Assembly: GCA_016196285.1 (NCBI GenBank)
Contig: JACPXY010000019.1
Span: forward strand, 1-33,008
Direction: 5' to 3'
From: Candidatus Pacearchaeota archaeon
Lineage (GTDB): Archaea; Nanobdellota; Nanobdellia; Pacearchaeales; GW2011-AR1
DNA: 33,008 nt
The notes under the pieces are model-generated. The model did not search any database. It was not told the DNA's origin and was given only the letters and a program-made list of their open reading frames with translations. Positions 7,696 through 28,048 of this stretch are shown in pieces. The translations under genes were made by a program, and so were the position numbers. Position 1 is the first letter of the stretch, and every line of letters begins with the position of its first letter.

Positions 7696-7707
7696 TACCG
7701 CATTTTT

Positions 7708-7931
7708 ATGTCAAGGAACTTGACGGAAACCACACCATAAATGGTGTGGTAGTTCCTTGAGCACGAGAAAATCTAGTAGATTTTCTGTGCCCGAGAACTG
7801 AAAGTTCTCTCGGCATCCAAACCGCAAGGATTTTCAATCCTTGATGGCAGTCAAGAACTCCGTTCTTGATGACACGAGTGCCTGTCACAAACCACGCACT
7901 TTAGTGCGTGGTGGCACATCGTGCTTTTGAT
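7708..7931 (+). repeat. Modular nested-hairpin element, copy 2 (modules A-B-C-D-E-F)
   Basis: Consecutive hairpins: A 7711-7760, B 7761-7790, C 7791-7813, D 7825-7843, E 7851-7869, F 7873-7923. Inner stems of A, B and F are perfect 10-bp inverted repeats. Confidence 0.92.
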
Positions 7932-11504: not shown

Positions 11505-11673
11505 TTCTTTCTGATGTTTTATCTTTTCCTAATACCTCCTAGCTTGCTTTTGGGATAAAGCAATGCAATTAGAAGATCTAAAAGTTAAGCAATAAATATT
11601 GTTAGCTGATGTCTGTAAATATTATCGTATCATAGATAATGAGGTTCTTCTTTTCTTCTTCTGATGTCCCATG

Positions 11674-11703
11674 GTCTTGCCAGAGGGTTCTTCATTAGGC
11701 AAG
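11674..11703. repeat. Short intergenic element, GGTCTTGCC-N-GGTTCTTCA family
   Basis: GGTCTTGCCAGAGGGTTCTTCATTAGGCAAG; CTTGCC/GGCAAG stem. Confidence 0.5.
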
Positions 11704-12365: not shown

Positions 12366-12474
12366 CTATCACCTCCCGGAACCGCACAGCGACCTTATGG
12401 GGTCGCTGGATAAGAACCTCCACCGGGTTCCTATCACCTCCCGGAACCGCACAGCGACCTTATGGGGTCGCTGG
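12366..12474. repeat. 44-bp direct repeat including the 3' end of tRNA-Pro (copies 12366-12409 and 12431-12474)
   Basis: CTATCACCTCCCGGAACCGCACAGCGACCTTATGGGGTCGCTGG present twice exactly, 65-bp period. Confidence 0.9.
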
Positions 12475-12536
12475 GATTCGCACCCAGGTCTTACACACCC
12501 CATGCGTAAATACTAACTAAGCTGTACTACGACCCC
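12463..12536 (-). tRNA. tRNA-Pro (anticodon GGG)
   Basis: Cloverleaf: acceptor GGGGTCG/CGACCCC, D stem GTAC/GTAT, anticodon stem TACGC/GTGTA with loop ATGGGGT, T stem CTGGG/CCCAG, discriminator A, no encoded CCA. Confidence 0.93.
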
Positions 12537-19586: not shown

Positions 19587-19708
19587 ATCAAAAACACGAT
19601 GTGCCACCACGCACTTTAGTGCGTGGTTTGTGATAGGCACTCGTGTTTTGGATGTTCAAGGAACGACCACACCTTAAAAGGTGTGGTTTTCGTCAAGTTC
19701 CTTGACAT
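19587..19708 (-). repeat. Modular nested-hairpin element, copy 3 (short form, modules A and F only)
   Basis: Reverse complement: TCAAGGAACTTGACGAAAACCACACCTTTTAAGGTGTGGTCGTTCCTTGAACATCCAAAACACGAGTGCCTATCACAAACCACGCACTAAAGTGCGTGGTGGCACATCGTG. Confidence 0.92.
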
Positions 19709-19760
19709 AACGATACTATTCTAATAAATGCTTTTTGCTTTCTAATTATGTTTAATGTGT

Positions 19761-25063: not shown

Positions 25064-25447
25064 ATGCACACTGAACAGGATTTTGAGAGAGATGTAGAGA
25101 CGTACCAGCGATGGCTCGATGACATAGGCAAGGCGAAAGCTCTGCGGGAGAGGTCATTTATTCGATCTGTCATCGATCTTTTTAATCTCACACCCAGCAC
25201 ACCAGCACATCCTATTCGTGGGCGTGCTGATTTGTCTGAAACACAGCAGACTGCAGTTGGTCATGGCGTCGATTACCGCGTTCTTGAGCGCAAATTTAGA
25301 GATATCGCTGAAGGCAGGCGCACAGGAGATATTTCTCCTGAAGAGGCTCGGTTAATGATATCATTAGCACATGAAGGATATGAAGCATGCAAACATACCT
25401 ATATTGTTAACTCAGTGTATGCTATACACGTGCAACAGGATGATTGA
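25064..25447 (+). CDS. Hypothetical protein
   Basis: 127-aa ORF with TATA-like sequence upstream. Confidence 0.6.
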   Translation: MHTEQDFERDVETYQRWLDDIGKAKALRERSFIRSVIDLFNLTPSTPAHPIRGRADLSETQQTAVGHGVDYRVLERKFRDIAEGRRTGDISPEEARLMISLAHEGYEACKHTYIVNSVYAIHVQQDD

Positions 25448-25460
25448 ACTTTATTGTTTC

Positions 25461-25500
25461 TTAATACACTAAAGTCTTGCCTTAGGAATAAAACTAGGCA
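25461..25500. repeat. Short intergenic element related to 14911-14954
   Basis: TAATACACTAAAGTCTTGCC vs TAATACACTAAGGTCTTGCC (19/20); hairpin TGCCTTAG/CTAGGCA. Confidence 0.5.
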
Positions 25501-25618
25501 GGAAAGAGATTCTAAAGTAGAATGTATGCAGAAAATAATTAACTGATGCTCGACTATAAAATCTTAGTTGTATGAGATAACAATAGTCTTTATATACTGT
25601 CTACATATTCATAATTTT

Positions 25619-26095: not shown

Positions 26096-28048
<1,953 letters not shown>

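Follow-up and report, generated by a model that had tools for sequence, protein, structure and literature searches.

The hairpin block at positions 7710-7931 of the window, that is, of the whole 33,008-nucleotide stretch of DNA analysed here, belongs to a family of mobile elements, a membership established by comparison of sequences across genomes. The original prediction of a non-autonomous transposable element is now well supported by many dispersed copies, fixed ends, naturally empty sites, genes that are interrupted precisely, and a rule for the target. We consider it about 60% probable that the block is a non-autonomous element resembling the palindrome-associated transposable elements (PATEs) and moved in trans by a Y1 transposase of the IS200/IS605 type. 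The genomes of DPANN archaea are small, genetic work on them is scarce or absent, and little has been published on their small mobile elements; literature searches turned up no description of this hairpin element family. The carriers are one order of tiny groundwater archaea, in which the family is found in many copies; it is abundant, precisely delimited and recognised by one covariance model. In addition, its target rule, bulged base and covarying stems provide a ready set of substrates for identifying the mobilising enzyme.

Anatomy of the element and its copies in the source genome

Six hairpins (A-F) with perfect inner stems follow one another at 7708-7931, as originally described, and their folding far exceeds that of shuffled sequence: −65.5 kcal/mol as DNA versus −25.7 kcal/mol for shuffles (z = −10.6), with z = −10.3 for the RNA fold. 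The full copy, 222 bp from GTC to TTTTGAT, lies on the plus strand at 7710-7931 in A-to-F orientation, and its left (A) end is flanked by the target tetranucleotide TTAT at 7706-7709 (+), recognised from the sequence and from a TNAT rule holding across many copies. On the same strand, module A (7711-7760) carries an inner palindrome at 7729-7750 inside an outer stem TCAAGGAACT/AGTTCCTTGA; module B (7761-7790) is the hairpin GCACG(AGAAAATCTA..)GTGC; module C (7791-7813, from the centroid fold) is CCGAGAACTGAAAGTTCTCTCGG; module D (7825-7843) is CAAGGATT-TTC-AATCCTTG; and module E (7850-7870) is GTCAAGAAC..GTTCTTGAT, which forms the left end of a shorter copy, L010. Module F with the right end (7872-7931) comprises an outer stem with a conserved bulged base, an inner palindrome at 7891-7912 and the terminus TTTTGAT. 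On the minus strand, 7872-7924 is a hit of R1, the covariance model built for the F hairpin. The boundary first proposed on the F side, after TTTTGAT, is correct, whereas the one on the A side, after ATG, is one base off, as left flanks end in TTAT, GAT or CGT and the element starts with GTC. The copies measured (94-297 bp) contain no plausible open reading frame (ORF), as had been claimed.

Two inverted copies, first reported at 1-113 and 19587-19708, are real with slightly different limits: a partial copy with A, B and C at 1-111 (−), truncated by the contig start, and a 120-bp copy made of F and A alone at 19587-19706 (−), with its target TTAT at 19707-19710 (−). A lone 15-bp palindromic relic of the A tip, of the (T)TCAAGGAACTTGAC type, lies at 1065-1079 (no strand assigned). 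All three copies first reported are therefore genuine, but three is far too few, since the 864-kb, 72-contig genome, of which the window is contig 38 (C38), has about 25 separate element places at E<1e-8. Full-length copies number three (C38, C27 and C72, the latter two 96% identical to the copy at 7710-7931), and the remainder are shorter mosaics that keep some of the modules. Besides 19587-19706, copies of F and A only occur at C27:5587, C28:464-585, C40:9188 and C41:3377. The genome also contains about six solitary 15-bp A-tip palindromes, GTCAAGGAACTTGAC, mostly adjoining AT. Apical loops TTTA and TAAA are both found on the same stem, and this points to inversion of the palindrome, as is possible for extruded hairpins. 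Furthermore, several copies stop at contig edges, including the first base of the window, which suggests that the element breaks MAG assembly. Copies with the A end facing an elongation factor 1-alpha-like gene lie upstream of that gene in two genera (L022 1376-1450, on G000 C13, and L151, on G136 C14), by chance or as a common hot spot.

Across the family, read from A to F, the element begins with GTC and ends with TGAT, and it ranges from 94 to 297 bp, most measured copies being 111-136 bp. Both A and F are nested hairpins, in each of which an outer stem surrounds an inner palindrome and one side carries an asymmetric loop; their inner palindromes point the same way, each behind an A-rich shoulder, and zero to several extra hairpins lie between them. 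These two hairpins stand at the very ends of the copies, as in PATEs, and terminal inverted repeats are absent, since GTC(AAGGAAC..) at one end has only RTCA in common with the inverted other end, ATCAAAA... Palindrome sequences are common within one genome and different between genomes, and the pairing of the F stem is kept: two-sided changes affect 17/26 pairs and 96% of cells are paired, values far higher than those of shuffled and slid controls, in an alignment fitted to the model with which an unfitted alignment of 14 sequences agreed. An extrahelical T on the F-to-A strand of this stem is conserved in 70/74. Hairpins nested in this modular way, and palindromes that span an order yet are specific to lineages, are new.

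The modules themselves vary. Extra hairpins starting with GTC after AT sit within the apical part of the F inner palindrome in L290 and L293, and L283 is similar; all three loci are on public Pacearchaeota/Woesearchaeota/Nanoarchaeota contigs. Together with the left end of L010, which is an internal GTC module, and the solitary 15-bp palindromes, these nested hairpins suggest that a hairpin can also appear, disappear or move on its own, much as in REP sequences. In two copies of another genome (L126 and L131, on G074 C60 and C142), the middle is interrupted by an apparent unrelated transposon with its own ORF (MVYIKSNPEQTILLPTDMRTIIPKDH...); the ORF adjoining F at these loci was considered as an element gene and rejected, as it looks like an unrelated transposase inserted into the copy.

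Insertion sites and target rule

Comparison of loci with and without the element, a check put forward with the original prediction, defines its exact ends and target site through pairs within a second repeat family (repeat R) and through four interrupted genes. Repeat R is intact in the window at 11580-11701 (−) and at L012 and L017, and is split by the element in L020, giving an empty site CTATAAT-A-CAATAATAT (L017) versus a filled site CCATAATATCAAGC...CTTGACACGATAATAT (L020); L026 provides a second, shorter pair. All copies inside the window are intergenic, as claimed, but elsewhere some sit within genes. In other genomes, four protein genes are interrupted, and deleting exactly GTC..GAT restores each as a continuous family match: a CN-hydrolase (G056), a 350-aa ADP-ribosylglycohydrolase (G167), a histidine phosphatase (G201) and a diphthine-synthase-like methylase (G023). 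The 282-aa frame of the CN-hydrolase is restored on removing a copy of 94 nt, a length with which it is regained solely if the right ends are chosen. Its PDB alignment crosses the junction with no gap there, and that of the ADP-ribosylglycohydrolase has a small gap near the junction.

No target duplication is seen in the repeat R pairs or the four interrupted genes, where the AT common to both sides is unassignable: the element itself finishes with AT, so that its own end would look the same as a 2-bp duplication or a crossover core. The left flank follows a T-N-A-T rule, with AT in 49/50 and T at −4 in 46/50 of the left ends delimited by structure alone. TTAT accounts for 50/81 copies in a set chosen in a way that partly favours AT. 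No conservation is seen in the right flank, save for a mild preference for T at +2.

Repeat R is about 110 bp long (window 11580-11701 (−), L012 2100-2216, L017 1987-2091 (−)), with parts in L010, L019, L020, L026 and L044. Its end GTGAAG..CCCTATGGCAAGACCATAAGG is similar to that found on the right of resident Y1 insertion sequences, and it may thus be a decayed IS200-type PATE acting as a landing site. A separate 59-bp repeat with CTAAAGTCTTGCCTTA (window 25446-25504, L015 1437-1494) is similar to the left end of these Y1 elements, and in L015 it abuts a copy of the hairpin element.

Distribution

The original prediction called for a covariance search of this genome and its relatives. Run with the F model, it found further copies to be widespread: R1 matches 48 of the 200 genomes of the order, usually with many copies each, in 28/104 genera, almost all of them in one family. 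Scored copies reach at least 25 per genome, and all such counts are lower bounds, since scoring covered 25 candidates in each genome. A 22-base pattern recovered 63 stretches in public genomes, all MAGs, whose names are Pacearchaeota, Nanoarchaeota or Nanoarchaeia, with one labelled Woesearchaeota. The same pattern had no match in viral contigs, nor did blastn of the element in phage records. When R1 was applied across the phylum (371 genomes), scores outside the order reached at most about 35 bits versus 100 for the best members; these weak matches resemble generic hairpins, and the strong ones are confined to the order. Two copies in one genome (L226 and L227, on G196 C22 and C25) are flanked left and right by near-identical sequence, as would be expected of a segmental duplication and not of two independent insertions.

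Mechanism and relation to known elements

The signature of IS200/IS605 elements such as IS608 and ISDra2 combines directly oriented subterminal hairpins, insertion on the 3' side of a tetranucleotide, a target-like tetranucleotide at the right end and the lack of target duplication (PMC6006769, PMC7290912). The present element has all of these features, which makes the single-strand route the best-supported, if not proven, mechanism. According to this model, the A-to-F strand of a gene-less element with one hairpin at each end, and zero to several between, would be excised and inserted as folded single-stranded DNA. A Y1 (HUH) transposase of the IS200/IS605 type, supplied in trans, would recognise the A and F hairpins, cleave after TNAT at the left and after TGAT at the right, and insert the strand 3' of TNAT, mostly TTAT, with no identifiable target duplication. 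Modules between A and F would ride along as passengers and could come and go. The single-strand mobilisation put forward originally thus fits the anatomy, but the enzyme was not found. IS200/IS605 elements combine a guide with a hairpin (PMC6006769), and the conserved A-rich shoulders beside the hairpins are a candidate guide position; guide pairing to the cleavage site is a feature of the known elements and only a candidate here. The present element also differs from them in its lack of tnpA and tnpB and in the long outer stems around its hairpins, and with no ORF for a Y1 transposase in any copy, it is not an autonomous member of that group.

PATEs with such features are known in Haloquadratum walsbyi (PMC3119063). 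Like them, the present element is short, too short for a transposase, has a palindrome close to each end, lacks classical terminal inverted repeats and target duplication, and shows a 5' target of four to five bases (here TNAT), dispersed copies and shorter terminal-only forms (PMC3119063). It differs in its several hairpin modules between the ends and nested outer stems, in being recognisable order-wide as a single family whose palindromes are specific to each genome and show compensatory changes, and in that no parent IS605 transposon with matching ends was found. It works like a PATE, and its full membership is putative, as no such parent was found. The SMR-A small mobile repeats of Haloquadratum are likewise about 110 bp long, without target duplication and with no mobiliser known (PMC3119063), and two present copies also sit inside an apparent IS200-derived repeat; SMRs, in contrast, have prominent terminal inverted repeats, while the termini here are weakly similar (RTCA).

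Nested left-end hairpins are also found in the Y1 insertion sequences resident in this order. One group of these (G016, G200) finishes with TTCAT and is apparently preceded by TCAT, which would place TCAT at both ends, and some Y1 ends have a similar architecture and an AAACC shoulder, with no autonomous element with matching ends among them. Their end sequences differ from A and F, and no common ends emerged from the Y1 ends of the source genome and about 35 Y1 loci that were read, 23 of which were searched with the F model. Among about 100 F sites, none belongs to an autonomous copy with F and A around an ORF. Y1 was found in 25/48 carrier genomes versus 54/152 non-carriers, and no match was obtained in the other 23 carriers. 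Transposases present in several copies frequently drop out of MAGs, and an old element may persist after its enzyme has gone, but several of the carriers with no Y1 match have ten or more element copies. Two further points count against the Y1 reading: the base in the F bulge is A when read on the strand that is putatively active, and the shared AT would allow a 2-bp duplication or a crossover core. The genes beside copies cluster into unrelated families, with no recurring neighbour and no transposase-like family.

The carriers with no detected Y1 favour a different mover, namely a serine or tyrosine recombinase, acting at an AT core or on a folded strand as with integron attC sites, or an undescribed HUH enzyme; we regard this as possible but unlikely. 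Crossover might take place at the AT found at both junctions, the F hairpin and its bulged base resemble in outline a folded recombination site, and a tyrosine recombinase is present in 24/24 carriers tested. However, that enzyme is universal, being found in 14/14 control genomes as well, and serine recombinases (12/24 carriers) and IS110 (3/24) are patchy, so that none of the three singles out an alternative candidate; the lack of a recurring neighbour gene also argues against such a mover. A four-base target without recombinase arms is, moreover, unusual for serine and tyrosine recombinases. Slightly less likely is hairpin-only mobile DNA spread across the order by a non-Y1 enzyme, for example a recombinase on folded strands, and growing by insertion of hairpins into hairpins. 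If no Y1 enzyme moves the family, it points to an undescribed route of single-strand mobilisation.

A dispersed structured or regulatory RNA transcribed from intergenic regions, the other reading originally offered, would account for the strong covarying structure and the very stable RNA fold, but it is disfavoured and very improbable. A search of the window against Rfam 15 at gathering scores gave 0 matches; copies are inserted inside coding genes; neighbouring gene orientations are mixed, with no gene family recurring beside copies; and module content differs between copies. In addition, G-T cells (17) and A-C cells (13) among the F-stem mismatches are about equal and both rare. Unlike what is expected of an RNA, pairing is thus not biased to one strand, which suggests that it is the DNA, and not one RNA strand, that is under selection. 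A REP/BIME-like mosaic whose moving parts are single hairpins instead of the A-to-F unit would fit the variable modules, the solitary palindromes, the left end of L010 and the nested hairpins, and the family resembles REP/REPIN sequences with their RAYTs in its intergenic multi-copy hairpins, unit mosaics and single-hairpin relics, but this reading is hardly credible, as most copies across genomes keep two different end hairpins in fixed order and orientation, and no RAYT-like gene was met beside copies, PF01797 being absent from many carriers.

Two further features of the window lie apart from the element. An exact 44-bp direct repeat occupies 12366-12409 and 12431-12474; its second copy overlaps the 3' end of tRNA-Pro (12463-12536, minus strand), and the repeat may mark a former attachment site or have arisen by local duplication. 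A chaperonin gene (PF00118) at 26096-27703 (−) looks GroEL-like (group I) in sequence, in an archaeal genome.
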